A stretch of 64,000 nucleotides of DNA from positions 682,001-746,000 of the forward strand of contig NW_024881538.1 in assembly GCF_019059575.1 (NCBI RefSeq). Reading direction: 5' to 3'. The DNA comes from Amphibalanus amphitrite (Eukaryota > Arthropoda > Thecostraca > Balanomorpha > Balanidae). This document shows positions 2,067-24,500 of the stretch, in pieces. The notes under the pieces are model-generated. The model was not told where the DNA came from and did not search any database. It was given only the letters and a program-made list of their open reading frames with translations. Each line of letters starts with the position of its first letter. Within the stretch, counting starts at the first letter, position 1. The position numbers and the translations under genes are program-made.

Positions 2067-5000
2067 GTGAGTACGAGGCCAGCTGGAAACTCTGCGATGT
2101 TTGGAAATGCCAGTAAACTGTAACTAGGGTCAATCAGTGTTACAGCGCGGTTTACGACGTGTTCTTGAGTGAGCAGCACTTACATACATATCCTCAGTGC
2201 GACCCAACCAGTTGTCTTCACCATATCAGATAATAGTTTGAGCCTGAATTTACGACCGTTTTGTAGCAGACAGTGGACGTGAAACAACTAGAGCGGCTCA
2301 GGCAGCAGTGACTGCTATTTGATTGAGCGCAAGCGCTTGGAGCAGACTGTTTTGAAGCGTTGTCGCAAAGCGGATTGAAGTGAGCACAAAGTGGCGCAGC
2401 GCTTTAGATGTCGCCCAGTAACAAAACAAACCTGCCACCGAAAAACATAGCGTCTATGTATACCGTTTGATCTCTGATACCACCTGCGGCGAGCCATTGA
2501 AGTCTTCTGTTATACCGTGAAACTAAAGGTTAAGACAATTCTGGTAAAATATCAACCCTACGCGATTCCTCGCTGTATACTTTTGACAAATTGTCAGGGA
2601 ACTCAGATTTGTTTTTCAATAGAAAAACACAATTCTAAAGAATAGTGTTTTAACTATTGACAACAAACCTTCGGTTAATAATCGCCTATTGCCATTGCCG
2701 TGTGTTGAGGTGTTTCATCGCTGTTACGCTTTTTGTCTTGAATTCGCTTTGCCTCTTGAGCAAAGGGTTCGCTGCCTCCTTTGATCTGATATAATTTGCT
2801 GTTTTTTTTCTTAACGGAGTTTGTCTCTCCACCGTTTGTTACACCTTCTGACAACTTTGCTCACCCTCCCACTGTATAAGAATTTGCCGTCCCTCTGAGA
2901 AGCAGAATTTGTTTCTCTCGCTTGTTGCCTGCTGCACCTTCTGACCGTTATTTTGTGCACCCTTTCAGCGCGGTACTGCAGCCCGCACCCGTCGCTACGC
3001 CAGGTGTGTCGCTCCATCGGTGCCGACGCGCCGCTCAACACCATGATCCGCGTGCGTCCGACGCCCGTGCCGTGCCCGTTCCGCGGCCGGTTCACGTTCA
3101 ACTACCGGCGCTCGGACCGCGTGTGCGCCGACCCCGTGTCGCGCGCCTGGTCGTGCGCCGATCCGTGGAGTCTGGTGCTGCAGCATCAGGCCTGCCCGGA
3201 CGTGGCCGGCGCCGAGCGACTCTCAGAGACCCTCACCTGCCTCGCCACCTGGCGCAACCACGACACTCACTTCATGTTCGGCAAGCTCAACAGCGTCAAA
3301 ACCAAGACGGACGCGGACAGGTGGGTGCATTGTGAGAAGGGATGATGCTTTTAGTGGGGTGGCTGACGGTTGGTGCTCTGGTTATGTTTTCATGACATAA
3401 GTTTCCGGTCGAAATTCACACATTTTTTTGCGAATTGTACAACAAATTGCAATTTCAGAGAAAACAGCGCCCTGTAAAACAGCGCCCCTGTACATTTCCG
3501 GTCGGTGTTTTTGTTCACGCTGCTAGCTTCTATTGGGCGTTTCATATTTGTTTTATGTCGATTCAATCTCCCCTCTCTCCCACCACCTGTCTATCGTCCG
3601 TTGCCCTCACCCCATCAGAGCCCGCCCGTCAGTCCGTCAGTTCCCCTCTCATCCTCTCTGTCCGAGCCCCCGGGCACAGCCGTGTGAGTGGTCCAGGTGT
3701 GCTGAATGTGGCGCTCTGCCTACCGATGATACGAAACGTGCCGCACTGCGGCCACCACGGATCGCTCACCCGTGAGCTACTCTTTGAACCGGGCCTTCAA
3801 AGTGGGCCTGCTCGTCCACTAGTAGCCAGGGATATGTCTGGAAATACGGCTGAGTGGTTTCAGGCCGGCACTGGCATAACTTCATAGCTAGGCCCATAGT
3901 GGATCATTGCTTAACATAATGAACCACTATTATAACTACTCGTTAATTTAATTGCTTGATGTAGCTCATGCGTAGCTATGCTAGGAATGTGAAATGCTGT
4001 AATTTTCAACAAAGCTGTCACGCCTTTTGTCTGCTTTTGACTGGCCGCGCGAACCGTTTAGAATGATGTTATTTTCCTGGAGGAGCGACGCCGGAACGAC
4101 AATGTTTTCGACGAACACAAGCGGTCTGCGGAAAGCAATTTTGCCGTGCAGCTCCTTTGAAGTTTGCGCGGCGCACGTGCGTGTACGGCGGCAGCTGGTG
4201 ACGGGGTGCTCTGTGCCGGCCGGCAGGTACCGGTGTTTCATCTACCAGCCGTTCGACCTGGGCGGCGGCCAGCAGGGCTTCCACGTGGTCCAGTCCGGCG
4301 ACTCGACCTGCCAGGGACTGCAGTCGGTCCACGTGGGGCACAAGGTCATGAACCTTACCAATGGTGAGTTCATCTGCTGTGGGGCACAAGGTTGTGAATC
4401 TTACCACGGTGAGTGGGTCTGCCATGGAACACAAAATCATGAATCTTGCCAATGGCAAATGGCTCCTCTGTTGAACAGTTCAGCCATGAGTCCTTCTACC
4501 CGTTAATATTTCTGCCGTCGGTCATGAAATCCAGTAAACTAGACAATGGTGTACGACAGAAACTTCGTCTACAGCCTGTAATATGTACTCTGTATGAACC
4601 TAACTAGCGATAAGTCAATCATGAGTTTCAAATTAAGATTATGAATCACACTAATTGTGGGTGAATGTTCGCCGCAAAACCTACCCATGGTAAGTGCCAA
4701 TATCGCGCTTAAGGCTATAAAATGAACTCACCCACGTTTGTGGCGGAGATGACTAATGTTTGCACACACTCCGCCGTGAATCCGAGGCTGGCCCGAGAAG
4801 GACCGATAAGATCTCTCACCGCGAGAGAGTGAGATCATCCTGGCGCCACGCCGTGTCACGAGAGTGTATGGCTCAGTGTCCTTCAACGGAACAGCACACG
4901 ACATCTCGGCTGTTTTCATTAAGAAATGATATGATGAGTTACCATTCATCACGAATGTATTCGAGTGTGTCACGAGCTTTTCGGGCATATCCAAATCGTG

Positions 5001-8000
5001 GTTTATGCTTGCGGTATTATACGTATTCTATGGTTTAAAATCCATAAAACAGCATTATTCGCACTAGCCTTTAGATATGGAGTGATGATCTAGCGTATTA
5101 CTTAACTATAGCTATTTTCTTCTCACAAACTACGGTTAGCTGTTGAGCAAAGACAAGAAAATCACAGAAAGATGTCATTACTTCGTTCAATTGAGTATGG
5201 ATTTCGTGTACTAGAGGCCTAATATCGAGATAACCACAATAATTCGCGGTAAATAAAGTTTCAAATAAAGCTCACTCTGAGCAAATGAATCATGGAGCAC
5301 CTCTGGAGTCTGGGTGTTCCACCACCGCGCCGCCAGGTGGCAGCACAATACAATGTCTGCAGTTATGCTGTGCCGCAAAGCACTTTGCTTATAATCTCGC
5401 TCATAGATGGCAGCAGTAGTAATCACTGGGAGCTAGGCTGTACCGCAATGTTTCCCGTTACCGCGCGGGGTTCATGCTATCGTGTAGTGAGGCGAAGCTA
5501 TTCGCGGATCAAATATTTTATTTTAGAAATGTGAGTGTATCTGCATGTTTCTGTCCGCTATGACTCAGCGCACACTGTACAATGTTGACTGTATGTGTGA
5601 GATCAATTCCTGATTGTGTATGTACGCAGTGACGCGCTGACACCTCCGCCGCGCCGGCCTGGTTTCAGAGCGGCGCCGGCTAGCCAAGTGTCGCCTGCCA
5701 GAGTGGCTGACGGCGCACCACGAGTGGCACAGGATGGACTCGAGACTGCGGTTCCACATCTTCCACAAGAATCACTCGATCAAAGTCAGCCACGAGCAGG
5801 GGTGAGTACGGCGCTCAGGGCACCCTCGGGAGCACCGCCGGAGCACAGTCTCGCGGCCCGTCAGTCCGACAGAGCTGTCGCTGTTCGTGCCGGCCAGTAC
5901 TAGGCAGGTTAACCCGCGCACCGACGGGGGTCTGCGCCAACTTCGCACCGACGGGGGGGGGGCGGATGACCGCCCCCCCCCCTGAGATCTCGAGAACGAA
6001 GCAAGCTAGCGACAAGCGGTAAACGGCATCGGATACGCACGGACAAGGTCTACAATTTTTACTAAGGTCATTTTCAGGTCAGGTCAAAGATGACGTCACA
6101 GGGGTCGAAAAAGTCAAAATGGCGGCGCTAGATATGGAGAGTTTTTCTCGAATAACTTTTGAATTAGTCAAGATAGGAACAAACTAAGAGCATCATCGTG
6201 ATCCTCTCGTCAATCCGCATCGAATGATATATATGTTGACCTCGAAAGGTCAAGGTCAAAGGTTGACCTCAGGTCACGTGACCTCGAGGTCATCATGTAT
6301 ATCATTCGATGCGTCTTGACGAGCTGAACACAATGAGACCATCCGCGCGGCTGTATCTTGCTCCTGTACGGAGTTATTGGCAAAAAACCGCTGGTGACCT
6401 TTGATGACGTCACATGACCTTACAGCTGCCCAACAGCAAAACAGACCTCAAGGTAGTGAAGGTTGATCGGATATGAAGTCATGTATGGTATATGGGGCCA
6501 TTCCGACCCGTTTTAGTGGTAAAAACAGGGAGTTGATTTTTCCCCCATTGACTTATAATGGGGAGGTCGCGAAATTGACCTGACCTTAGGTCACCGATAT
6601 CAAAACTCCGAGATATACAAATTGTAGCTACTAATGACCTTATAACATCCTGCGAATTTCAAAGGCCTCCGACTTCTACTGTAGCTCTGGCACGGTGACA
6701 AAGTTGCAAAAAAGTGACTTGAGGTTGGGTCATTCAAAGTGACCTGGTGACCTGACCTTAATAGGTAGGAGGTTCAAACTTGCACACCATGTGTAAAATT
6801 GATGAGGTAATAGTCATACCAAATTTCGCGGCGCTACGCGCCGCGGTTTTCCCGTTATTCGCGAAAAACCTCAGGGGGGGGCGGATATCCGCCCCCCCCC
6901 CGTCAGTGCGCGGGTTAATCTTGTAGGTCTTGGTAAAGCAAGCTGACTGAGAAGTCCTCTTGAACTCGAGGGTGAGTTGTAACTTGTAACCTCTGAGTTT
7001 CTGATCCTTCTGTAGAGTCCCTACTTACACTTTCTGGTTTCAATACGTGTCCTTCTCCTTTGTGTTATCTCTCTTATTCTCTCCTGCTGATTCGCTCTGA
7101 CCCAGGGGCCTCCGCTCGTCCAGCCTCCAGTTTTCCTCCCCTCCGGCTGGTCAGACCAGCGGCCGAAATACCGACAGCGATTGGCTGTTCCCCGTAATAT
7201 ATCCCCATCGACGGTCCACGGCCCTCCACAGACTAATGACGACATCAGCTGCAGGCCTGCGCCGCTATTGTCGCAGATCGGCACTCGCCCCTCCTCACTC
7301 CTTGCTCCTCACTCCTCACTCCTCGCTCCTCACTCCTCGCTCCTCACTCCACTCCTCCTCCTCACTCCTCTTCCTCCTCCGTCTAGAGGAACAGCGAGGG
7401 AGGGAAGGGAGTGTTGACTTGAACCGGTGATGGGCCGGCGCTATCTGTAAATTGGGCGCCATTCAGCGCCACCGTTGCGCGGCAGAGGCGATTGTGTTCG
7501 CGCCGTGCGCGCCAGTTTGACCGACATTTGGCGAAATGGTGGCGCTAAAAAGATGGGTGCCTCAGCCGTTGTGTTCTAGCTTTTACAGTTGGTGTCACTT
7601 GTAAGCTTATGTGTCATTGTGTACACAGTTATTGTCTTGTCTGGTCTCGTATTCTGAAAAGGAAGCGATAGACTGATAACAATTAATGCGGACTGTTTTT
7701 GGGATTACTTAGACGGCGAGCAAGTCTGACTAATGTGGAGTGCTGACTAATAGAACACACGCCGGATCTGGCGTCAAAATGTCCACCTGACCCTGTTCGC
7801 TCTCCATTGCTCCGCTAACATTCGATCATGTGCAGCCTCCATTGGTCCTGGCTGTGACGCAGCTCTCTGGAATGCGCTCGCTCTGTGGCGCGTGGGCCGT
7901 ACTGACGCGGGGTATCTGATGTTTCCAGGCCGGGTCAGGAGCGTCAGGACGACGAGTCGACCAAGCTGATCTGCAGTCAGATCACGGAGCTGAGCGAGAA

Positions 8001-11000: not shown

Positions 11001-14000
11001 TGTTGATTATTTGACTCAAAGCTATGATAAAATGAATATGCCGCATACCACAATTGTATTAAGCAGCATAGTAGCCTTGACGAAAGATTCAAGCAGCTAC
11101 CTAGTAGGACTAGGTACATAGGTATCTACCTTACACCTACCTATCTTCAACACTCAACAGTCAACAGTGCAATATCAGATAAATTTGTAAGTAACTCTGA
11201 GAGACAATTATAATATAAGTGAGGACTAAGGAGTAGCATAGTAACCTATCTATTACCTAGAAAGTCTTTTTGAAAATTCAAAAGCACAAGTTCCGAGAGG
11301 CATTCATGTTTTTTTTAATCAAACTTTTTCTACATGATAATGAAACAAATGTTACTACTTCTTACTTATCACATAAAATTATTCAAACAGTACAACCTCA
11401 AAAATAGGATTAATCCCACCTGTGACACATTCAGCATCAGCAGGGACTTCATGGGCCACGAGGAGCAAACGAGGAGGCCATGACCTTGCATGAGTGGCTC
11501 AGGCCTCAGAATCAGATATGATCTTGAGTTGAGACTCATTGAAAGTAGTTAAGGTATCGGTAAAGCTGGCGTCACCGTCGCCTTCCCGCCAAGGTAGGCC
11601 ATAATGACCAAGGTCACGTATGTCAAACTAGTGGCAGCTTCAGATCGCAGTTACCGTGCGATCGTACTAACTTACTGCAAATTTGTGCTAACCTGCTGCA
11701 GTGGAAAACAAGTAAGTATTATGTCCGTGAAGTTAGCGTCAGCAACAACAACGAATACAGCGTCGGATTCAGAACCGCTCAAAAAACTCATATTAGGTCA
11801 ATTGGGGGACGGGGAGCAAGAATATGACCTTTATTTGGCCCTAGCTCTTACCCCTTACCCCTTAATCGGCCCTTAAAGGAAGGGGCGCGTCAAAAGTGCC
11901 TCAAGGGTTCGTCTGATCGCCAAAATAAGGGTTGCAATAGATTCCCCGGGTTAATGTCTAGCCGCAGCCTCGGGTTCCAGATGTGTGCAACTTACCCCTT
12001 GCCCCTTAATCGGCCCTTAAAGGAAGGGGCGCGTTAAAAGTGCCTCAAGGGTTCGTCTGATCGCAAAAATAAAGGTCGCAATCGATTCCTCGGGTCCATA
12101 TCTAGCCGCAGCCTCGGGTTCCAGATGTTTGCAACTTACCCCTTACCCCTTAATCGGCCCTTAAAGGAAGGGGCGCGTCAAAAGGGCCTCAAGGGTTCGT
12201 CTGATCGCATAACTAAGGGTCGCAATCGATTCCTCGGGTTAATATCTAGCCGCAGCCTCGGGTTCCAGATGTGTGCAACTTACCCCTTACCCCTTAATCG
12301 GCCCTTAAAGGAAGGGGCGCGTCAAAAGTGCCTCAAGGGTTCGTCTGATCGCCAAAATAAGGGTCGCAATCGATTCTTCGGGTCAATACCTAGCCGCAGC
12401 CTTGGGTTCCAGATGTGTGCAACTTACCCCTTACCCCTTAATCGGCCCTTAAAGGAAGGGGCGCGTCAAAAGTGCCTCAAGGGTTCCTCTGATCGCAAAA
12501 ATAAGGGTCGCAATCGATTCCTCGGGTCAATATCTAGCCGCAGCCACGGGTTCCAGATGTGTGCAACTTACCCTTGAGGCACTTTTGACGCGCCCCTTCC
12601 TTTAAGGGCCGATTAAGGGGTAAGGGGTAAGTTGCACACATCTGGAACCCGAGGCTGCGCCTAGATATTGACCCGAAGAATCGATTGCGACCCTTATTTT
12701 GGCGATCAGACGAACCCTTGAGGCACTTTTGACGCGCCCCTTCCTTTAAGGGCCGATTAAGGGGTAGGGGGTAAGTTGCACACATCTGGAACATCTGGAA
12801 CTAACAAATTTGAAGTAAGTTAGTACTTACTTATTTTCCACTGCAGCAGGTTAGCACAAATTTGCAGTAAGTTAGTACGATCGCACGGTAACTGCGATCT
12901 GAATCTGTCACTAGTTTGACATACGTGACCTTGGTCATTACGGCCTACCTTGGCGGGAAGGCGACGGTGACGCCAGCTTTACCGACCTAGGTGAGTTTAT
13001 TTATATTATAGCATAGCCTATAGGTAGTTTGGGCGTATTTGACTCTATAGACGCCCAAATTCTTATGCTGTTGATTGATTATTGGGACCAAATTGGGACT
13101 GGGAGAAGGGGAGGCAGCCGCAGGTGTCAATTCTGACTTCTGACATGTAAAATGTAGGTACCTAGGTAGTGTAGCAGGCACTTGGTTTGGTAAGACTAAG
13201 TACCTATCAACTGCCAAATGCTTTTGGCTCATTAGGCGCCTGTGCCTGAGCCTCTGAGGCTCTTGTAAGTCTGAAATATGGAGTTAAGTGATGGCTAAAG
13301 CTGAGGGGGTGATCTAGCATTGATTATTAGGGTGTTGATGCTGACTTGTGAACGACTCAAATTTTTTTTGAGTCGATTCTTTGTTTGAGTCTGAAAATTT
13401 GAATCGATTCATCAAATGACTCATGATGTTGAATTTAATTGATTCGAATCAACTCATGACTCATCAAGTTCCTCGATGAAGTGATTCGAATCAACTCATG
13501 ACTCATCGAAAAACGGTTTGATTCTGAGTCGATTCACGAATCAACTCAGAGTCGTTTACAAGTCTGTTAGAATCACGCTTTATTTAACAATGATAATCTG
13601 CCTAGGGACCTTTATGTTCAGGCATTCATCGTTATCGAGCCATATAAATAACTGACTATAACGCGGCTGTGGGCCGAAATGGTTTCAAGCGTGGGTGTAA
13701 ATGCCACGGCATATTCTTCGTTCTTGAACGCCAACCGCGCCATTGTTGTGAAATCAGTATGCACGCCTCAGCGAACCGAGAACGCTCCATTAAATCATCG
13801 CTTAGTGTGGTACGGAGATACGTCCATCGAATCATCTCCAGAAAATGTCACTTTTCGGGCGGCTGACTGCGTCAGAATGCCATCCCGTGCCCGCGAACGT
13901 GTCGGTGGGCGGAGAATTTGGCCGGCCTGTTCCGGAGCTGCCCGGCTCTCTGCCGAGGCCAGATGTGAGGGATCGACCCAAGATTGATGAGCTGAGCCCG

Positions 14001-17000
14001 AGTTGAGTTTAACTCGCCGGCCAAGTAGCGACACTCGGCCGGCGCGCTCGATCTCAGAGAGCTCAAGTGGCAACAGGATGAAGCGGCTCTTAGGTTCATC
14101 GCGGCGATTCGTGTTTTATTGGCGCGTCCGATGGCGCCCGGATGGTCAGACCTTTCCGAAGGGCACTCCGGGCGCCGGTGGTCCGATTTAGTGCTCTCCT
14201 AACTTTACAGCGGCCTCCTGTCGGGAGCTCATCTCGTTTCCGTTATTAACCGTACCAGCTTGACTGACTCCGTCGACTTTTTGCGATCGTAAAGCAAGCT
14301 GCGGAGGGTACTGGGACCAACTGCTTACGATGATAGACGCACAAGTTTTGACATGGCCATTTGGTGACTCTGTGAGGCACGGCTCGTCATTTGGTGAGCT
14401 ATGCGCAGATCACCAATCATCCGTGGTCCATCATCAGAGGAATGTCACTAATGACTCGGGCCACGCTATCGATTAGCTAGTTCCATTAGCAGTCGTGGGG
14501 GAGCGGTGTGCGCCTGACGTCATGAAGTTTCAGCTCACTGGTCACAAACAGACGTAGCAGCGATGTTCGGTTGATTCAAATGTTTGGTATTTACTAATGG
14601 CAGGCATTAGGTGCAATGTAATACGGATTCTGAACAGTTTTGAGTCTTGCCATGACACTTGTCAGGACTTGGCAGACAAACTCTCTCGCTCGCAATGTGT
14701 TGTGCTCATATGCACACGCCCTGTGGTGTACGCTTGTGTAGTGTGTACGTTCACCTATCGCCCATCAGCCAACACACGTACGTTTCCAGTCTACATCACT
14801 CACACACCATTAGGTACACATAACACATCACTCATATACCACATGTCACTCATCGCTCACGGCCCCGCGTTCCGACAGTGCTCATCAACGCGCCAGGTAT
14901 GCGCCTCATTCAGCGTTACCCGCACTCTTTTCAATAGTGCACCATAACACTTCTGCAGTGGGGGGGGGGGGCACTCCATATCGCCTGTAACGTATCGCCA
15001 AGCGCGGCCTACCGATACAGCAGCCCGCCGCCCCTGACGCGTTCGATGGCTAAGTATTCATTACGGCATATGGCCGTCTGTCGTGTGTGCTCATTACCGT
15101 AGAGAGATATGGCCATTAGGACGGTGGGTGCCGACCCGCTCGGCTATATTGCTCGTGCCGTGAAGGCGGGGCCGGTCCGGGTGCGTGGTCGACGCTCGAT
15201 ACCCCGACTCGCGTGCGACCGGTAATATGTTTTCCACCTGGAGCCCGAACGCTGCCGGCCTGAAAGTGATTACTGTTTGCTATCACATATGAGGCTGTCC
15301 CTGATCACTTCGGCATGAGTGCATTTAATTTACATTTCATAAGGCCCACAATTGGTGCAGCAGTTTGAATTTATAAAGACGCGTCACCGCTGTCCGAGTT
15401 TTCGCTTTGTTTCCGGCACGCAATAACAACGAAACGTAATACCTGCAATTTCACTCGCTCGTTGTCTTTGTTCAGTCCGCCTAATATCAGCGAAACACAA
15501 TGTTGACTCGACAGCTGATAAATTATGATAACGGGTTTGCGTAGGTCTGGCCATTCTTTACTCGCTGTGACAGAATCGTCGCCGCCCCTCCCGGGCTGGT
15601 CTTCCGTCCTGTTCGGGCAGCCTCCAAAGGCGTGGCCCCCATAGTTCATCCTGCCATAACCCGGCTCCGTGGAGAGTCTCTTCACCGTCGTCTATTTGGA
15701 CCTGTCTCCGCCGCCTGACCCCTTCCATCCCAGTCCGCCAGCGCGTCGGCCACGTGCGTCGACTGGTGTCTCTTTTGGCTGCTCTGGCCTCACCACACCT
15801 CTGTGCCGGTCCCACATAGCAACAGACTCAGTACCTGACCCCTCCGGACCATCAGACCTCATACCGGCCCCCTGTGGCCTCAGCTCCTTCCTGCGCGGGC
15901 GCCGCGGATTTATTAAAACCGTGTCAACTGAGCGTCTCTCTGATTAAGTCGCCGCCGGGGGACGCTGAGACGCCGATGTTATTTGGCAGCCGGCTCCTGG
16001 CGCCCCCGGGACGCCGGCCATATGAACCGCCGCCGTGATTTAGCATTGCACCCGGCGGCTTTCGAACCGGTCGGTAATATCAGTGTGAAAATGGCGCCGT
16101 GCCCTCGGGGCTGAGAAAGAGACGGTGTGCGAGCCGACGCACTCGGAGAGCTGCGCTCTCAAGCGTGTCGATTTGGTGGTTTGGCAACATTGCGATGCAA
16201 TGTTGCTTGTGGATTGGAATGCGTTGCATTTCGATGCACACACCATCGCTTCCATTGCAGCATTAGTTTATTCGGTGACTGACTGAAACCGCATTGGGAC
16301 TGTCTTTGAATAGGAGAATAGCAATGTGTTCCCTCGTGATAACAACTTTTCAATGATCACTTTTTCATGGTTGTGCGGTTTGCTATCCACTTTTACCAAT
16401 CAAATGTGATGTAATGTGTCTCTCACCACACCAGTTTTCCCACTCTCCCATCCCTTCGCCCGTATCTTACCTGTGTATTCTCTTGTCGACAGCACGAGCG
16501 GCTACCAGTGCGCCGTGCTCTATCGACGTGACCGGCACGTGGTGGAGATAAAACTTGGTGAGTGACGGACCCACACCCACACCCACACCCGTACACCTCT
16601 CATATTCAGTCACCTGCTCATGGTGCAGAGGTCAGGGGAAGGAAGATAAATGGCGGGGGGTCCTGTGTATGTGAATGTGTATGTGTGTATGTGGTCTGTG
16701 GGAGAAAGGTCACGAATATCTCAAAGACAGGAGGTGTGAGCGTGGGGGTCAAGGACGTAAGCATTTCGTCTGCTGATGTCAGTGGAATGCTTCTTGGAAG
16801 GAACGGCAATGAAAGGCGATCTAATATGATAAGTGGTAGAGTACCTAGGCGGGTACGGGCCACGGGGTGGCCACACTTCTGTAGGAACTGACTTTGGAGA
16901 CAATAATTATGATACTTTATTCTACATTATCGTTATTTTAGCGACTGTTCATGAACGTTTTGCTTCTGCCATCTACAATATGTACTTAACCGTTTTAGTT

Positions 17001-17893
17001 CGCTGGTCGGTCGGTTAGGAATACGCGGAACACATCAAGCAATGTGTATACTGTATCCGTAATAAATTGATGTCCGCTGTTGATTCTATTGAAGCTTTTA
17101 CCCGCGACGGGTATGGTTGGCCTATTGATCGTAATTTTGTTGACATCTCATCCCTCTCTTCAGGTGATGTAGTGCCCTCGCCCGAGGCCGCCTGCCAGTT
17201 CTTTGACGAGACGCGCCACAACTTCACCACGCTAGTCGGTCAGTACTGACTCTCCTGGGGGTAGGGGGCTGCTGGGGGTGGGGGAGTGGGGTCGTGCGCA
17301 GACGAGACCAAACTAGGTGGCCTCGGGAGTAGAATGACTCGAATGGAGCTGTTTGATATGATGTGCACGGATCTGCTATGATTCGGAGGAAAATGTGTTT
17401 TATACATAAATACGAGTGCATAAAATCACACGATTCACAAAAAAAACATGGATAACATCGCTATTGTAATGCTCACCTAAATGTTATGTGTTCAAACTGA
17501 TGTGCTGGTGAATTGTTTCACCTTTGGAACCTGTAACATCCTCCTATATGATGCGATTCGATGCAGTCACAAACGCTTATGCTCATTAACTCTGACTTCT
17601 GCTGCCGTCGACTCCCAGTATCATCAACACTCTGTCTCCTCTCTGCACGTCTGCACCCTCTAACCGTTTGTATTTGTGTTTCTGAACAGCGGCCTCCCAC
17701 CCGTCCCACCCGTGCCCGTACCTGGGCCGACACGCGGTCATTGGTGTTCAGCGGGAGGGCCGCCGCGTGCGAGACGCCTGCTCGGGGGCGTTCAGTACCC
17801 TGGTGATGGGTTGCCACGCCTCTGATACACTGGAACTGCGCTCAGAGTGTCGCCAGAGGACAGAGAGCTCAGGTGAGAGGGGAGAGAGAGGGG

Positions 17894-17976
<83 letters not shown>

Positions 17977-20900
17977 GAGATAGGGTTCTTTTGAGAGGAA
18001 AGAGGGGCTCAAGTGAGGCACGGACCGGACCAGGTCCAGGCCAAGCCCGGATCACGGACGTGATAGGCTGTGATGGTCAGACTTGACCAAGACATAGACA
18101 ATGCCAAGCTTGCTTGTGTCTACTTGCTCATTCATACAGTTATCATATTGGGTTTCCACTTTCCAAGTGTAGCCGATGCAACTATTGCACGCCATACAGA
18201 AATGACCTATTGGATCTGCAATCCGCATAATGCGTACGGTGGCATTTTTTCCATGTATCTTGCTAAGTGCTAACCCTCCGTACGGCGACTCCTCCCCCCC
18301 CCCCAATAAGTGAACAAGGCCATACACTGAATGCATTCGTTGGATGTACGATTACGGGCCGGCACGCGGGCGGATCTTCCCCGAAGCTTTCCCCACGGCC
18401 GATGCTGTTCGCTCCGTTCCGGTACTTCCCCCGCCTGCTCCGCTGTATGTAACGCTGTAATGATTTAGCAGCCTACACTCAGCTGCTGACCGGGCCTCTC
18501 ACACCGTTTTCTCTCTACCGGCAGAGTATCGTTGCCACGGTAGCTGGCAGGAGAACAACACCCACTTTCTGGTGGCCTCTCCTCTGTCGAGGTCATCGCC
18601 CTCGGCTCGTCGCGTCTGCTTCATCTCCATGGCAACGGGCGACGGTCTGCACTTCTCCACACTTCAGGAGGCCTGCTACCGGAGCGTGCTACCCGGTCAG
18701 GAGGGCAGCCTGGCCTTCAACGTCACCATCAACGGTCAGTGCGAGCTGACTGGCTGCGATAATCGGGACTAGGGCCTGCTTACTTGTCTCTTGGGTCTGG
18801 GGTTTAGGAAAGCGAAACTGTAGATAAATATATTCAAATATAAACGATTTATAGGTACGTGTGTGGTGTGGACGATGTGTATTTTATGTATTTTTGTTCA
18901 GTGTTTCCAAATGCGGGGCCAGTTGAACAGCAATCAATGCTAAGTGCGTTTGCGTCGTTGGGTGTCCTTATGTATTTCTGTGTGTGTGCACCTCCCTATG
19001 CGTATGTGCCTGTGTTTATTTGTTTATGCGTATGTGCCGGTGTGTGTATGCCTGTGTGCCGGGTGCCGCGGTGTGTACTCGCCGGCGCGTGTTTGTGAAC
19101 TCTGCCTGCGGCGCGGCGGCCGTCCCCCGGGACCGCTCAGCAGACCGGACCCGTCACGGGCTGCAACGTGGCGCTGTTTTTCTCCCCGCTGCCGGCTTAT
19201 TGGTTGAAAGCCCGCTTTAGCAGCTGCGTCGCCGGAGGCTCAACACCGCGGCTGCTATGCAGATGCGCTCTTTAAAAAGTCGTTTCTCTGTCATGGCGCC
19301 TTAAAGAAGTATTAACCGGCAACGTGGAAGCGGTTGTAAAATTTTAGCACACAAGATGCGCGCGAAAGGCGTTCAGATGCTGTGTTCCGAGAGCCGTACG
19401 CCACTTAAGGTGATGAGATGCGAAGTGCTCAGGGATGCTATATGGGAGATCGGGTAGCATTAAATTGAGAAGGAAGCCACTTTACTGTACACCATACGGC
19501 GATGAATGTTGCATTCGTTTAATAACGTTACAAGTGGGACTTTATATTGAACTATAAAAGTTAAATGAAAAGTGACCTTTGTGGTAGTTTATATGAAATG
19601 AAACGATGCATTTCTGTGCAATGTGCTTACGCGTTGTGGTTACTTTTACTTGTCCTTAGGTCGGTATCTTCTTATTCATAAAACGTGTTTTCTGTTATCG
19701 CATAAAGTTAAAATTAGATGTCCCTACATACACCCAGAACGACGGTACTGATGAAGATTTTTCACTGACCACCAGCCTCCCCCCCCCCTCCCACACACAC
19801 GCACACATGCCACCGAAATCCGCCTGTCCACAGTATGGTAACTCTACATACAACGCGTAACCACGCTGTTATTCATTTTCGCCTTATCCGTTTGACGGAG
19901 AGGTAGCCACATGTGGAGGCTCATTACTAAAGCCGGGCGGATGAAGCCACCGCTCGAGTGTGCTCCCGCTCTGCGGCTCTGTCAAGTGTCTAATTGGACG
20001 TTAGGTTGCGGCATAATTAGTTTACCCGGCCCGGTGGCTGGCAGGCTGGCTGGCCTTTCCAACATTATCTTCCGATGGTTGATGCAGGTTGTGTTCAACA
20101 GATTAAACACATTACATTCCTTCAGCTGAATTATACATATAATCCCGGCCAGAGTTGAGAGTTCTACGCATGTTCGCCTTTCTTCACTTCGTGTGATGAA
20201 ATCATGTAAATAATGCACCCAGGATCGGCGACACCAATGTCTTTCAATTGAAGCCAGTTTCCAACATTGTGAAGGGAAATCCTTAGGTGACGATACTTAA
20301 CATAATTGCTGTCTCACCGCAACTGAACAAAATTACGAGGCTTTTTTCCACTAGGAAAGTGCCAATCAGCTCTGCCGAAAGCCTTGATTCTTACCCGGTT
20401 CATTCAGCTTGACAGGTCACGTCCTTTGACCCCGTTCTGACCCGTATGGTCAGATCTAACTATATGGCCCGTTATCTGACCACAGATGGCATCCTATTAC
20501 TGACCTGTTGATGTCAGTTACCAATTGCTGACCTGGCCTCTTACTCTTGGTCTTCACCTCTCACCTCTGGCCTGTAAAGACCACCTACAGACCGCTGGCG
20601 AACTCGGACATGTGCCCTGTCCCCCTCATGGTACTGTCGAGCGGAGGCCTGTGGCTGTTGGCCCCTGCTCTGTCTCGCTCGGGCGACTGTCGAGTGGGTG
20701 CCACTGACCTCTGACCCCTGCCCTGTCCCCCTCAGGCGACTGTCGAGCGGAGGCCACTGACCGTTCACTTTGACCTCTGACCTGACCTGTGACCCCTGTC
20801 CCCCTCAGGCGACTGTCGAGCGGAGGCCTGTAGCCGTTGAACGCTGACATGACCTCTGACCTGTAACCCCTGCCCTGTCCCCTCAGGCAACTGTCAAGCC

Positions 20901-21574
20901 TGTGACTTACGAACCCTGCCCCGTTCTCCCTCAGGCGACTGTCAAGCGGAGTCCTCTGACCACTGACGTGACCTCTGACCTGTGACCCCTGCCCTGTCCC
21001 CTCAGGCGACTGTCGAGCGGAGGCCTCTGACCACTGACATGACCTCTGACCTCTGTCCCCTGCCTTGTCCCCTCAGGCAACTGTCGATCGGAAGTCTGTA
21101 AACGCTGACATGACCTCTGACCTGTGACCCCTGTCCTGTCCCCTCAGGTGACTGTCGAGCGGAGGCCGCTGACCGTTCACTTTGACCTCTGACCTGACCT
21201 GTGACCCCTGCCCTGTCCCCCAGGCGACTGTCGAGCGGAGGCCGCTGACCGTTCACTTTGACCTCTGACCTGACCTGTGACCCCTGCCCTGTCCCCCCAG
21301 GCGACTGTCGAGCGGAGGCCGCTGACCGTTCACTTTGACCTCTGACCTGACCTGTGACCCCTGCCCTGTCCCCCAGGCGACTGTCGAGCGGAAGCCGCTG
21401 ACCGTTCACTTTGACCTCTGACCTGTAACCTCTGACCTGTAACCCCTGCCCCTGTCCCCCTCAGGCGACTGTCGAGCGGAGGCATCCACCAGCGGCTCGC
21501 GGTCGGCGGCTGCGGTGACCGCCGTCAGCTGGCTACTGCTCCTGGCGCTGCTACCCCTCTTCTCAGCACGGTGA
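1999..21574 (+). CDS. Secreted/GPI-anchored cysteine-rich protein, DUF7042-DUF7045 family (10 exons, 5' end missing)
   Basis: Gene-level entry. Exons: 1999-2066, 2969-3320, 4227-4363, 5669-5801, 7929-8036, 16493-16557, 17164-17238, 17690-17872, 18525-18734, 21465-21574. Joined they give 479 residues ending in TGA. Intron phases agree at all nine junctions and all introns are GT-AG, which is strong internal support. The motifs match the arthropod extracellular family annotated as DUF7044, DUF7043, DUF7042 and DUF7045 (recalled, not searched): CYICVV, CPFRGRFTF, QACPDV, CLATW, YRCFIYQ, QSGDSTCQGL, CRLPEWL, CTSGYQCAVLYRRD, YRCHGSWQENNTHFLVASPLS. The molecular function of this family is unknown to me. 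The last exon encodes a Ser/Ala-rich stretch and a hydrophobic tail ending in Ala-Arg, as in a GPI signal. The start codon and signal peptide are missing from the window. The fifth intron is 8.4 kb and full of transposons. Confidence 0.8.
2067..2968 (+). other. Intron a-b
   Basis: Intron of 902 bp with gtgagt donor and ccctttcag acceptor. I see no repeat or gene in it beyond AT-richer unique sequence. Confidence 0.6.
2969..3320 (+). CDS. Exon b: DUF7043-like core
   Basis: The largest exon (352 bp) lies between acceptor ccctttcag and donor gtgggt. It encodes RYCSPHPSLRQVC, then CPFRGRFTFNY, CADPVSRAWSC, the motif LQHQACPDVAGAERLSE and CLATWRNHDTHFMFG. These conserved cysteine and aromatic positions are those of the DUF7043-type domain. 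The exon ends in phase 2 (ag), completed by g of the next exon to Arg before YRCFIYQ. GC content is much higher than in the flanking introns. Confidence 0.85.
3321..4226 (+). other. Intron b-c
   Basis: Intron of 906 bp (donor gtgggt, acceptor gccggcag). The two reading frames around 3435-3890 show no domain. Nothing else is recognised. Confidence 0.55.
4227..4363 (+). CDS. Exon c: YRCFIYQ / QSGDSTCQGL segment, duplicated donor
   Basis: The exon begins after gccggcag and ends at donor gtgagt (4364). It encodes YRCFIYQPFDLGGGQQGFHV, QSGDSTCQGL and VMNLTN, the junction between the DUF7043-like and DUF7042-like domains. The 3' end of this exon with its donor is tandemly repeated: a second consensus donor lies exactly 45 nt downstream at 4409. 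The extension between the two is open and in phase, so it would add 15 residues including three cysteines. I take the first donor because VMNLTN followed by the next exon fits the family. Confidence 0.8.
4333..4470 (+). repeat. Tandem duplication of exon end plus splice donor (3 copies)
   Basis: Three degenerate copies of a 45-46 bp unit start at about 4333, 4379 and 4424 (core ggcacaaggtcatgaacctt). The first is the true exon end. Copy 2 keeps a consensus gtgagt donor. In copy 3 the donor is gone (ggcaaa). Confidence 0.8.
4364..5668 (+). other. Intron c-d
   Basis: Intron of about 1.3 kb. Its first 100 bp are degenerate copies of the preceding exon end and the rest is unique sequence. The chosen acceptor is ggtttcag at 5668. 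An alternative AG at about 5632 (tacgcag) is rejected because it would put a TGA in frame. Confidence 0.6.
5669..5801 (+). CDS. Exon d: DUF7042-like CRLPEWL segment
   Basis: The acceptor is ggtttcag and the donor gtgagt at 5802. In phase with exon c it reads ERRRLAKCRLPEWLTAHHEW and on to FHIFHKNHSIKVSHEQG. The C-x-(L/F)-P-x-W-(L/I) motif and the following His/Trp-rich stretch are typical of the DUF7042-like domain. It ends in phase 2 (gg), completed by g of the next exon. Confidence 0.8.
5909..6918. mobile_element. TTAA-flanked foldback MITE-like element (copy 1)
   Basis: About 1.0 kb within an intron, bounded by TTAA at 5909-5912 and 6915-6918. The inverted ends read ccgcgcaccgacggggg on the left and the complement of gtcagtgcgcggg on the right. 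Each end holds a G-run/C-run hairpin of the form gggggcggat..ccgccccc. The interior has many aggtca/tgacct half-sites and a cgcggcgctacgcgccgcgg palindrome before the right end. It has no coding capacity. TTAA duplications with CCC...GGG ends are known for piggyBac-type elements, so a non-autonomous piggyBac-like element is likely but inferred. A related copy is at 44404-45591. Confidence 0.75.
6919..7928 (+). other. Remainder of intron d-e with a ctcctcact simple repeat
   Basis: Intron sequence. A pyrimidine-rich degenerate repeat of units such as ctcctcact lies at about 7290-7385. No exon is seen. The acceptor of the next exon is gtttccag, ending at 7928. Confidence 0.6.
7929..8036 (+). CDS. 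Exon e
   Basis: The exon runs from acceptor gtttccag to donor gtaggt at 8037. It reads PGQERQDDESTKLICSQITE and continues to VVFHHSRG, and ends in phase 2 with tg. The first base of the next exon (c) makes this Cys, giving CTSGYQC. It closes the DUF7042-like domain. The downstream intron is the longest of the gene at 8.4 kb. Confidence 0.78.
8037..8179 (+). other. Start of the 8.4-kb intron e-f
   Basis: Includes a run of about 11 G at 8059-8069. No coding signal. Confidence 0.5.
8180..8465. repeat. 24-bp minisatellite (gggactgcagtaacccaccc)
   Basis: About 11 to 12 tandem units of roughly 24 bp with consensus gggactgcagtaacccaccc plus agtg, degenerate at both edges. Because 24 is a multiple of three, reading frames stay open across it on the minus strand (Trp-Val-Thr-Ala-Val repeats). 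They are not evidence of a gene. Confidence 0.85.
8466..9689 (+). other. Intron e-f, unique part
   Basis: About 1.2 kb without any recognised exon or repeat. GC-rich segment at 8990-9240. Confidence 0.5.
9690..10160. repeat. ~30-bp minisatellite (cgttatccgtctgtctcggt)
   Basis: About 15 degenerate tandem units of 25-31 bp built from cccgttatccgtctgtctcg and gttcgct. Overlapping open frames in all three plus-strand phases come from the repeat itself. Confidence 0.85.
11557..12985. mobile_element. Nested foldback element with ~165-bp inverted repeats
   Basis: The left end (11557-11722, beginning tcggtaaagctggcgtcacc) and the right end (about 12822-12985) are inverted copies that differ at only a few positions by eye. 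Between them sits a 144-bp satellite. It carries no protein-coding potential. I could not define a target duplication confidently. It lies within the hAT-like element, so it either inserted later or is that element's internal cargo. Confidence 0.75.
11845..12795. repeat. 144-bp satellite, five direct then two inverted units
   Basis: The anchor ttaatcggccctt recurs at 11862, 12006, 12150, 12294 and 12438, exactly 144 bp apart. After a breakpoint near 12574 the same unit continues in reverse orientation (gattaagggg at 12611 and 12755, again 144 bp apart). As 144 is divisible by three, a 150-codon frame stays open through the direct units. I do not regard it as a gene. Confidence 0.9.
13575..16492 (+). 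other. Rest of intron e-f
   Basis: About 2.9 kb with no recognised exon. There is a run of about 12 G near 14959. Several reading frames of 60-116 codons exist here on both strands but show no domain and no composition shift. Confidence 0.5.
16493..16557 (+). CDS. Exon f: CTSGYQC segment of DUF7045-like domain
   Basis: A short 65-bp exon between acceptor cttgtcgacag and donor gtgagt. Its first base completes the Cys codon left by exon e, giving CTSGYQCAVLYRRDRHVVEI. The C-T-S-G-Y-x-C and YRRD motifs are the start of the DUF7045-like domain. It ends in phase 1 (g). The exon is too short to stand out as a reading frame, but phase and motif agree. Confidence 0.8.
16558..17163 (+). other. Intron f-g
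   Basis: 606 bp; begins with a short (cacacc)n run at about 16570. No exon is seen. Acceptor ctcttcag. Confidence 0.6.
17164..17238 (+). CDS. Exon g
   Basis: 75 bp between acceptor ctcttcag and donor gtcagt. It encodes GDVVPSPEAACQFFDETRHN followed by FTTLVG, continuing the DUF7045-like domain. It enters and leaves in phase 1, so it is symmetric. Confidence 0.75.
17239..17689 (+). other. Intron g-h
   Basis: 451 bp with no feature recognised. Acceptor ctgaacag. Confidence 0.6.
17690..17872 (+). CDS. Exon h
   Basis: 183 bp, phase 1 on both sides, between ctgaacag and gtgaga. It encodes CPYLGRHAVIG, then RDACSGAFSTLVMGC and SDTLELRSEC, with the Cys-x-Gly and (S/T)DT(L/M)E motifs of the DUF7045-like domain. 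The donor is followed almost at once by a long GA microsatellite. Confidence 0.8.
17873..18524 (+). other. Intron h-i with (GA)n microsatellite
   Basis: 652 bp. A nearly pure GA tract runs from about 17895 to 17974, starting about 23 bp after the donor. The rest is unique sequence. Confidence 0.7.
18525..18734 (+). CDS. Exon i: YRCHGSW / LVASPLS segment
   Basis: 210 bp between ctaccggcag and donor gtcagt. It encodes YRCHGSWQENNTHFLVASPL, ARRVCFISMATGDG, EACYRSV and FNVTIN, with two N-glycosylation sequons (NNT, NVT). It ends in phase 1. If the donor is skipped, the frame runs on for 12 codons (GQCELTGCDNRD) to TAG ending at 18773. That would give a protein without the hydrophobic tail. Confidence 0.82.
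18735..20620 (+). other. Intron i-j, unique part
   Basis: About 1.9 kb without recognised exons. It has a tg-rich stretch at 18960-19050 and short ca runs near 19790. It leads into the acceptor array. Confidence 0.55.
20620..21488 (+). repeat. Minisatellite of duplicated 3' splice sites (~12 decoys plus the real one)
   Basis: Each 48-88 bp unit contains tgacctctgacctg, a C/T tract, and an exon-like start (gcgactgtcgagcggagg). Ten upstream copies keep CAG at the splice position, ending at 20735, 20808, 20886, 20934, 21005, 21076, 21147, 21223, 21300 and 21376. Two leftmost copies near 20628 and 20691 have lost it. The true acceptor ends at 21464. Spacings are 73, 78, 48, 71, 71, 71, 76, 77, 76 and 88 bp. 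Each decoy would be joined in the same frame, but those I read hit a stop within about 8-12 codons. Confidence 0.9.
21465..21574 (+). CDS. Exon j: last exon, hydrophobic/GPI-type C-terminus and stop
   Basis: The acceptor is a long C-rich tract ending ccctcag at 21464. With the phase-1 g of exon i it reads GDCRAEASTSGSRSAAAVTA, then VSWLLLLALLPLFSAR and TGA (21572-21574). The small-residue region followed by about 13 hydrophobic residues and a short end fits a GPI-attachment signal or tail anchor. This copy differs from the decoys right after the shared start: ggcatccacc replaces the ggcc..ctgacc that leads to a stop. Confidence 0.8.
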
Positions 21575-24500
21575 TAGGTCAGAGGGAGACGGACACCGCC
21601 AGTGAGGGTCAGGGATACCGCCCGGCACCAGGACAGTGTGCCTCCCGGCGACAGGACAGTGTACCGCCCGGCGCCGGGATAAAGCACCGCTCCAGCGTCA
21701 GTGTTTGGCCTGGTGAGCTGGACGGCCCTCCAGCCCCAATGTTGGCCAGGGGAGCTACATAGACAGCGCTCCCGTGCCAGTGATAGACTCTGTAGGGAGG
21801 ACGAACTCCTGACGCTGGTTTGGATCGACCACCTGGCTCGTATGGTGTCAGAGCGAGCTGGACGAAGGCACCGGGTTATCACGGATATCGCCGCGCCCTG
21901 ACAACAGAACTGCTGACCGCCGCTCCACGGTTCCAGAACAGATGGGTAATGGCGGGACAGTTGGCTGGCCACTCCCTGATGCTGTGGGCTGCTAACAGAC
22001 AGCAAAACGGACTCCCTAACACCAGGAGCCCCTCAGGCCCCAGACATCCTGCTGCGTGGTGTCGTGGTGCGCCGTGTACCACACCCATCGTGCTGGTCCC
22101 GCAGCGGTAGCGGACAGGGGCAGGTATTTTTCTATATATGCGTGAGACCGCCGGCGCGGCCGTGTGATGCGATGGAGCAGGTGCTCTCTGTGATCGGACG
22201 GAGCGAGCTAGTGCCGCTCCCGTAGCCAGTATGTGGATGAACGAGTGATTTGTGTGAGCACGTACTACACGGTACATAGGCCGGATGCAGTGGTTAGTCA
22301 TACGACACTATAATGAGATGGAGCTTGGATAGTCATCTGATCTGCCCACGTCACTGGATAAATTGGTGGTAAGCGGAGATTATTGCTTTGTGATTTGTTT
22401 TCTAAATGATCCCACATTTGTTCTCCCGTGAAGTTCAGACAAGTTGTTTAGAAACCTTCAAAAAAGGTACAGTCACTCGATTTTTCTCAAGTTTGTCTGT
22501 CTTGGCAGATCAAGCAATGCCAGAGCAAGCTTACGAACACACAAATTTGATCAGGATCGGACGATTGGACACTTCTAAAAAGAGATCTTTCGTGCTTCCC
22601 GGAAATTCACCGGAGAACAGAAGTGGGGTTTAAAAAAAGGTGTCGAATTGGTACGTTTCTGAAGCTCCCGGAAGGTAGGCGTCGCGACTGTGGCTGATTT
22701 CTTGAGACGTGGGATTTGCGGATGCATCACTGAGGCAACTGGGGGTACTGAGGAGTTCTGAGTTACTGAGACAACTGTCACCGCCGTGACTGCGAGGATA
22801 ACGTGTGCTGGCCGGGTCAGAATCGGTTGGTGTTCGCTTGTGTCGAGTGTTGCCTGCTATAAGCGACTGTGTGTGTATGTGTTTGTGTGTGCGCTCGTCA
22901 CTAGACTGCAGTCTGGGATCTCACGGCGCCGTGGGCTGCTCGGCCGGTGTGCCGGTCTGCCGCGCGGCTCGTGCCGGTACAAAGAGGCCCGCGCGCCGGC
23001 ACACGGCCCCCGCTGCTCTCTCTCCGGGCAGCTGCCCCCGCCGCTCTGCTCAGGATTCAGCGGCCCGGCGGCTGCGCGGACCAGCTCCCGTGGACAGCTG
23101 CGGCGGCTGCGACTCCGGCCGAGTTAGAATGGCAGTGTGGCGCGGGCTGTAGCGCCGCAGAAGTGTTATCTGCGGTGTTGTTTTTCTTTCAGCAGTCATT
23201 TATTTACCAGTATCGACGTTCAGTGGCACTGATATCATCACCAAGTTTATCTAGTTTTCTGGAGTCGCCTTTGTTTTTCTGTGTCTGGTCTTTTTTAAAT
23301 AACTTTGCTGTGCTCTTGCTTATATCGGTAAACCAAGATGGCTGGATCATTCGTCCAAGCCTAACGATCGTTTTACACGTGTTTTCTTATCAGTGATTTC
23401 CGGTTACTATACCGCTGTCTTGTGCCATTGTTAAGATATCCTCATTGTTAACCATACTTACTCATGCATACAAAGACGTTTTGAATATATCTCAAAGCGG
23501 AGTAAATCGACTTTGACTTGCTATGGTTTTAATGAGAATAGAGTGGTTGGCAGTGGCACCGGTGGCAAGTATGCCAACCCAACATTGTTAGCCCAAAGTA
23601 ACGTGGCCGCGGTATACAGCGCCTGCGGGCTGTGTTTCGCCAGGTCTTCGGAATTTAATTTAAGGAGGGCCCTGGGTAACCATCTACCGAGTCTAGGGGA
23701 TCAGGAGCCTGGAAGATATGCCTCCTTAGTTAGTGCACCAAGCTGTCTCTAAGAAATGAACGGAGAAGTGAGGCCGGTGCCCTCTGACTTCCCCTGCCGG
23801 CGTCGCCATACGATCCATACGATCCCAGGTGTAGAAACCGGGAGGTACGGACGCCCTCCGACTACCCGCAACAGCTCCGTCCCGGGAGTACCGTCCACCC
23901 GGTCTTCCCCGCGGCGGAGCCGTCACCCTGTTTGGTCTCGGGTCTGCTATTGCCTGGGCCACTGACCATTAGCGCAGTTATCGGTGTATTATACTGGCGG
24001 CGGCACTTAAATGCGTCGCGGGGGACTTTGGCCGCTATATATCAGCAGGGCGGATGGACGGGCGGACGCGAGGGGGCGGTCAGTGGATGGTGCTGCCGGG
24101 AGCCGCAGAGACCATCCCTCAGGGGGGGGGGGGCACAGGACGCCGATATGCGATGTGACCAGCCAGCACACAGAGTGACCGGTGGTGTAGCTGGTCGAAT
24201 TGACGGAGCTGCTCGACAAGTCTCTTGAGTCTGGAGCAATAACTGCGTCATGGTGCTAGCCGCTACGCAGTCTGCTTTTCATTTGTTACTGAATGAAACA
24301 CATAAATTAATACTTGACGAGGTAATTTCCGGATCAAATCAAGGGGTTTCCGCAGAATAATACTTCGTAATTTGGGTTTCTCAGTACCATATTCAGGTGC
24401 CGTAATTTCGTTGTACAGTCTTGTATGAACGTCAAGATTATTTTTCACCGGTGCAACACCGTTCGTATGTAGTTGAAAGACTTTCCTGGGCGCGAACTCA

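Follow-up and report, generated by a model that had tools for sequence, protein, structure and literature searches.

The last intron of a DUF7042/7043/7045 gene of Amphibalanus amphitrite ends in a minisatellite in which 12 decoy copies of the 3′ splice site stand in tandem ahead of the real acceptor of the last exon. The array is probably a neutral minisatellite that has grown over this splice site, with the real site in use, some of the decoys leaky, and the repeat tolerated rather than selected. Positions given below are those of the window, that is, the whole stretch of 64,000 nucleotides that was analyzed.

Structure of the Array

The array and its two parts are as follows.

20630..21464, plus strand: minisatellite with 12 tandem decoy 3′ splice sites, start-to-start spacing 48-88 nt
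20736..21464, plus strand: part of the array holding the ten CAG decoys, reaching to the AG of the real acceptor (21463-21464)
20630..20735, plus strand: two distal decoys without AG (CAT at 20630, CGG at 20683)

Each unit contains, in this order, a branch-point-like CTGAC, a C-rich pyrimidine tract, an AG and nucleotides 1-19 of the last exon (GCGACTGTCGAGCGGAGGC, the exon stretch common to the copies). The original prediction, made from the sequence of this region, was that about 12 tandem copies of an acceptor and exon start precede a real acceptor at 21464 and that ten of them keep CAG. This description was borne out: 12 decoys were counted, the CAG is intact in 10 of them, and the real last exon opens at 21465, 21464 being the final base of the intron, which brings the acceptor copies to 13 in total. 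The exon starts of the CAG decoys lie at 20736, 20809, 20887, 20935, 21006, 21077, 21148, 21224, 21301 and 21377. TRF gives overlapping rows across 20613-21483, including two rows of period 71 (76% and 85% matches), and the array fits the definition of a minisatellite (tandem units of roughly 10-100 nt). Bases 1-19 of the real exon are matched exactly by 5 of the 12 decoys, whereas base 20 is A in the real exon and C in the 11 untruncated decoys; the decoy at 20887 is a truncated copy.

In every CAG decoy, the A of the nearest yUnAy motif lies 22-28 nt before the exon start (the motif is CTGAC, or CTTAC in copy 20935), pyrimidines account for 76-88% of the 17 bases from -20 to -4, and the run upstream of the AG is free of other AGs for 36-60 nt. 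The real acceptor is built alike, with a pyrimidine fraction of 0.88 and CTGAC at -30. Because the unit carries the branch-point-like motif, the tract, the AG and the exon start, each of the ten CAG copies is, judged by its sequence, a complete and working 3′ splice-site module.

Three units of 76-77 nt are nearly identical, and the repeat slippage that had been supposed is thereby visible as a recent expansion. When one 71-nt unit was compared with the animal's own genome (807,550,619 bases), all ten matches among the best-scoring candidates fell inside the array; the search covered the best candidates, and further weak copies are possible. The array locus was found as one copy in the assembly, whereas other loci have two haplotypes, and own-genome DNA searches with pieces of 71, 936 and 1321 bases gave no second haplotype of it among their best candidates.

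Several other features of the array were noted. The hexamer TGACCT, the complement of the nuclear-receptor half-site AGGTCA, occurs 20 times within 20601-21464, several copies lying one base apart. At 21145-21153, a decoy reads CAG/GTGACT, an acceptor joined to a donor, which resembles a recursive-splicing point. This is the lone donor-like site (at least 7 of 9 positions) in the array, at 21148, and the use of decoys as cassettes was rejected, since the exon that it would define (21077-21147) still holds a stop at 21107. Minus-strand frames of 148, 152 and 208 amino acids, measured from stop to stop, run through or into the array between 20626 and 22032; a profile scan of the frame at 21002-21457 gave no significant Pfam match.

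The Host Gene

The array lies in a gene on the plus strand with the domains DUF7042, DUF7043 and DUF7045 (Pfam PF23069, PF23070 and PF23073). Phase and domain order were the grounds for assigning its exons to one gene, with more than 10 kb separating 5801 from 16493.

2969..3320, plus strand: coding exon, first part of DUF7042 (63.3 bits, E 2.7e-17)
4227..4363, plus strand: coding exon, end of DUF7042, with its donor inside a 45-nt tandem duplication (25.7 bits, E 1.2e-5, just under the cut-off of 27)
5669..5801, plus strand: probable coding exon, start of DUF7043 (a weak match, E 0.0098, under the cut-off)
16493..16557, plus strand: coding exon, DUF7043 positions 52-81 (E 3.7e-4, under the curated cut-off)
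17164..17238, plus strand: phase-compatible coding exon, without a family match when taken alone
17690..17872, plus strand: coding exon, DUF7045 region in the joined translation only
18525..18734, plus strand: exon with the C-terminal part of DUF7045, ending in phase 1 before GTCAGT (33.6 bits, E 4.4e-8; 33.0 bits in the genome search, cut-off 27)
18735..21464, plus strand: last intron (2730 nt), which ends in the array (by inspection)
21465..21575, plus strand: real last coding exon, split G followed by DCRAEASTSGSRSAAAVTAVSWLLLLALLPLFSAR and a stop, with a GPI-signal-like tail

The matches to DUF7042 (63-64 bits) and DUF7045 (33-35 bits) are both above the curated cut-off of 27, and the DUF7043 pieces are weak matches below theirs. 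Neither AATAAA nor ATTAAA occurs after the final stop codon, at 21575-24500. A (GA)n microsatellite at 17882-17980 begins about 10 nt past a donor of the gene. A search of the open-access literature returned nothing matching DUF7042-7045.

Predicted Consequences of Decoy Entry for the Protein

The exon at 18525-18734 ends with the first base of a codon (a split G), and the codon register computed for the decoys shows that all of them open in that of the real exon, as had been predicted; the phase is correct at every decoy because each copies one junction. The tails that would be added by the ten CAG decoys are of 10 residues in four cases, 12 residues in five and 26 residues in one (copy 20887), the last extending through the next copy before a stop. 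The expectation that a stop would be met within about 8-12 codons therefore holds for nine of the ten (10-12 residues) and fails for the copy at 20887.

The real last exon adds 36 residues, the split codon counted, and ends in a GPI-signal-like hydrophobic stretch; the hydrophobic C-terminal tail was read by eye in this gene and in its paralogs. Entry at any of the ten CAG decoys would, by the translation, remove this tail, in agreement with the earlier claim. The cysteine that is the third residue after the junction is retained by all ten. Retention of the intron would also lose the anchor, because read-through past the donor soon meets a stop: the corresponding open frame (18464-18772) ends in ...NVTINGQCELTGCDNRD.

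The Paralog and Other Family Genes

A search of the genome with DUF7045 gave 13 exon matches. A paralog, retrieved by DNA search as well as by this domain search, lies on contigs C396 and C2045, which represent two haplotypes and agree at 97% over an alignment of 6133 bases. The phase in which its DUF7045 exon ends (phase 1) is that of the host gene, and its last exon, opened by one acceptor, reads AECLTSSARRWRPVLSPLLLSVAAAVLVRR and a stop in both haplotypes, with a GPI-like hydrophobic tail here as well. Three haplotype differences fall in this last coding exon, all synonymous (by eye), and the last intron (loci L015 and L016) measures 4868 nt in C396 against 8378 nt in C2045. No copied acceptor within 9 mismatches of 36 was found from 1500 nt upstream to 600 nt downstream in either haplotype of the paralog.

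The third residue after the phase-1 junction is cysteine in both the host gene (GDC) and the paralog (AEC). Three further family genes, A, B and C, have a phase-1 junction after DUF7045 followed by an exon that opens with DTC, APC and APC, respectively, and genes A and C have a separate tail exon with a hydrophobic end (all by eye). The phase-1 junction with a third-residue cysteine is a trait seen in these genes and is not taken from the curated family definition. The paralog and the family genes match the host gene, and on this comparison the last exon belongs to the DUF7042/7043/7045 gene; the chance, raised with the original prediction, that it is foreign to the gene was not borne out. On the same comparison the exon start is older than the array, because the paralog, with its one acceptor, agrees in phase, cysteine and tail, and because genes A-C also carry the third-residue cysteine.

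Tests for Selection on the Decoys

In the 19-nt exon blocks of the decoys, 15 substitutions relative to the real exon were counted (copy 20887 counted up to base 13, an indel putting the rest out of register), and they are split 5/5/5 over codon positions 1, 2 and 3. In the alignment of all 13 copies, minority cells number 20 of 247 in the exon block, 2 of 39 in the CAG, 25 of 194 in the pyrimidine tract and 45 of 404 in the spacer. The divergence of the exon block does not differ from that of the spacer, either in the 13 copies (Fisher p = 0.23) or without copies 20630, 20683 and 20887 (8/190 vs. 21/305, p = 0.24). With 12 short, related copies these tests have low power; within that limit, neither a codon-position bias nor a slower drift of the exon blocks relative to the spacer was detected, and selection on the decoys was rejected as an explanation on this low-power result.

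The CAG is unchanged in 30 of 30 cells over ten rows, nine decoys and the real site (p = 0.25 against the rest), which fits either a selected or a neutral view. The spacers of the array contain one AG in 571 nt as a raw count. Such scarcity would suit selection for clean splice sites, and it also fits the inheritance of TGACC-type sequence common to all copies.

Possible Recurrence of Splice-Site Duplication

The host gene also carries a duplicated donor.

4339..4452, plus strand: donor duplication, 2.5 copies of 45 nt, with GTGAGT at 4364 and 4409 and GCAAAT in the third copy

If the second GTGAGT (4409) were used, 15 in-frame residues would be inserted, three cysteines among them. Family gene C (locus L032, C134:271210-271350, minus strand) carries a single decoy acceptor 68 nt before the real one, the two copies lying at reverse-complement positions 1406 and 1474. 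This decoy copies the tract, the CAG and about 35 nt of exon, with 7 mismatches over 36 positions, whereas 300 shuffles gave at least 13. Six of the seven differences in the copied exon part (35 nt) are at third codon positions (by eye), a hint that this copy may formerly have been coding sequence.

The base rate was surveyed in 43 loci (L022-L064) drawn from two family searches (13 DUF7045 matches, and 30 of 140 kinase matches) with haplotype pairs included. Of 44 candidate acceptors in 27 loci, three had a copy, all in L032, and none of 33 candidate donors in 21 loci had one. The test used was ungapped and undercounts: at 21465 it found 4 of the 12 decoys, and it missed the donor duplication at 4363. 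At 12 further positions of the host gene, some of which were guesses and of which at least one (16478) is no junction, no copied junction was seen. Three cases suggest that splice-site duplication recurs, and in the DUF7042/7043/7045 family it looks like a mutational habit; the claim of a habit of the whole genome is thin, given that one of the 43 surveyed loci was positive and the 12 other positions of the host gene were negative. The array itself also gives a hint of repeated tandem duplication over exon boundaries in this genome. Minisatellite arrays vary between paired haplotypes of the assembly (28 nt x 4.6 in L046, none reported in L047), and a change of array length is therefore credible in this genome generally.

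Probable Origin and Possible Use of the Decoys

In the explanation regarded as probable, a segment running from the TGACC-rich end of the intron across the acceptor to nucleotide 19 of the last exon would have been tandemly duplicated, with expansion later. The exon-proximal site at 21465 presumably stays in use, because its tail is common to the paralog, and it is expected to be kept by its exon context. Some decoys may be entered less often than the real site, which would yield a secreted form with the conserved cysteine and without the anchor; leaky use of this kind is plausible. The array itself would be tolerated and not selected, and any effect of its copy number on the isoform ratio would be a by-product. 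According to the parts considered here of a study of internal exons, the choice between 3′ sites at least 20 nt apart is made at first recognition and the upstream site is preferred, less so with large flanking introns (PMC9225289). Mixed use is therefore to be expected in the array. The competing acceptors described there typically have their own tract and branch point, as do those of the array; they occur as pairs, however, whereas the array holds many tandem copies of one site.

It is possible, though rather doubtful, that the array is inert, exon definition and the full exon context confining splicing to 21465 so that the decoys are ignored. Exon sequence and proximity reportedly took part in the choice among duplicated splice sites studied by Reed and Maniatis in 1986, which counts in favor of such confinement, as does the fact that each decoy has just 19 nt of exon. 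The weaker upstream preference with large flanking introns points the same way, as far as the passages considered go (PMC9225289). Against this, pyrimidine content and branch-point-like motif are similar in the decoys and at the real site, and the decoys are transcribed first.

The original prediction went further and had the number of acceptors tune the ratio of the two forms. That each added unit raises the share of transcripts stopping before the anchor, with slippage alone making individuals differ in the ratio of secreted to membrane-bound protein, is improbable. As a maintained function, in which the acceptor number sets the ratio of soluble to anchored protein, length-variable control of splicing is very improbable. 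It would account well for ten intact modules, all in phase and all stopping before the anchor, for the cysteine kept in all ten, by which the soluble product would end just past a residue common to the paralogs, and for the recent expansion seen in the near-identical units. The phase and the stops, however, follow automatically from the copying of one junction, the decoy exon blocks have neither codon-position bias nor extra conservation, and the array is absent from the paralog. In all, the array shows no sign, in tests of low power, of being kept for removal of the anchor.

A donor-side counterpart is known in human ABCA7, where intron 18 contains a VNTR with a 25-bp unit whose first two bases are a splice donor (PMC5954066); the passages considered suggest that this array starts at the donor of exon 18. 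An isoform that keeps one VNTR unit exists at 2 +/- 1% and is unaffected by VNTR length, which was instead correlated with skipping of the next exon, exon 19 (PMC5954066). In both genes the tandem unit bears a splice site. ABCA7 differs in being donor-sided, whereas the present array, known from DNA alone, repeats a 3′ site together with its branch-point-like motif, its tract and adjoining coding bases before a last exon (PMC5954066). In so far as these passages go, a one-unit isoform that is rare and independent of length speaks for leakage and against an acceptor number that sets the ratio (PMC5954066). The tuning part of the prediction is consequently not upheld: codon bias and slower drift were not detected (at low power), the paralog has one acceptor, duplications recur in the family, and retention in ABCA7 is about 2% and length-independent in the passages cited (PMC5954066). 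The statement that no such mechanism has been described was also too strong, given the donor unit and the one-unit isoform reported there for ABCA7 (PMC5954066).

Two other systems are similar in part. VNTR6-1 in intron 6 of TERT is likewise an intronic minisatellite, and the title of the report ties the region to splicing; the portions considered contain no mention of a copied splice site (PMC11830802). The Rlec lectins of a river prawn are a crustacean family with both variable tandem repeats and alternative acceptors; in the portions considered, however, the repeats belong to the coding sequence within exon 2, and the alternative acceptor is in exon 5 and is no copy of the repeat (PMC7536079). 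A search of the open-access literature found no 3′-side precedent for an array of copied acceptors, which is not proof of absence. The acceptor-sided, many-copy form before a last exon is thus a variant for which no precedent was found, with a donor-side counterpart in the ABCA7 account as far as considered (PMC5954066).

The reverse order, in which the array would predate the exon and its last unit would have supplied the exon start, is extremely improbable in spite of the five decoys identical to exon bases 1-19, and was rejected on the evidence of the array-free paralog, which opens its last exon in the same phase, with the third-residue cysteine and a similar tail, and of the cysteine-third exon that follows DUF7045 in three other family genes.

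The probable history, a neutral repeat with some leakage, leaves a single intron with a naturally occurring row of almost identical 3′ splice sites. Junction counts across this row could reveal which rules govern the choice of acceptor: first transcribed, closest to the exon, or exon context. If the decoys are used, the anchoring or release of a surface protein would be influenced by the repeat, and variation in the population would provide a test of dose dependence.

Other Repeats in the Window

A long inverted repeat at 11557-12985 has arms at 11557-11721 and 12821-12985 that are 97% alike and encloses a 144-nt tandem array with an inverted copy; it looks like a mobile element. Tandem duplications are present at 53847-54465 (320 nt) and 55376-55883 (253 nt), both with 98% matches, and their units are similar in the TRF consensus.
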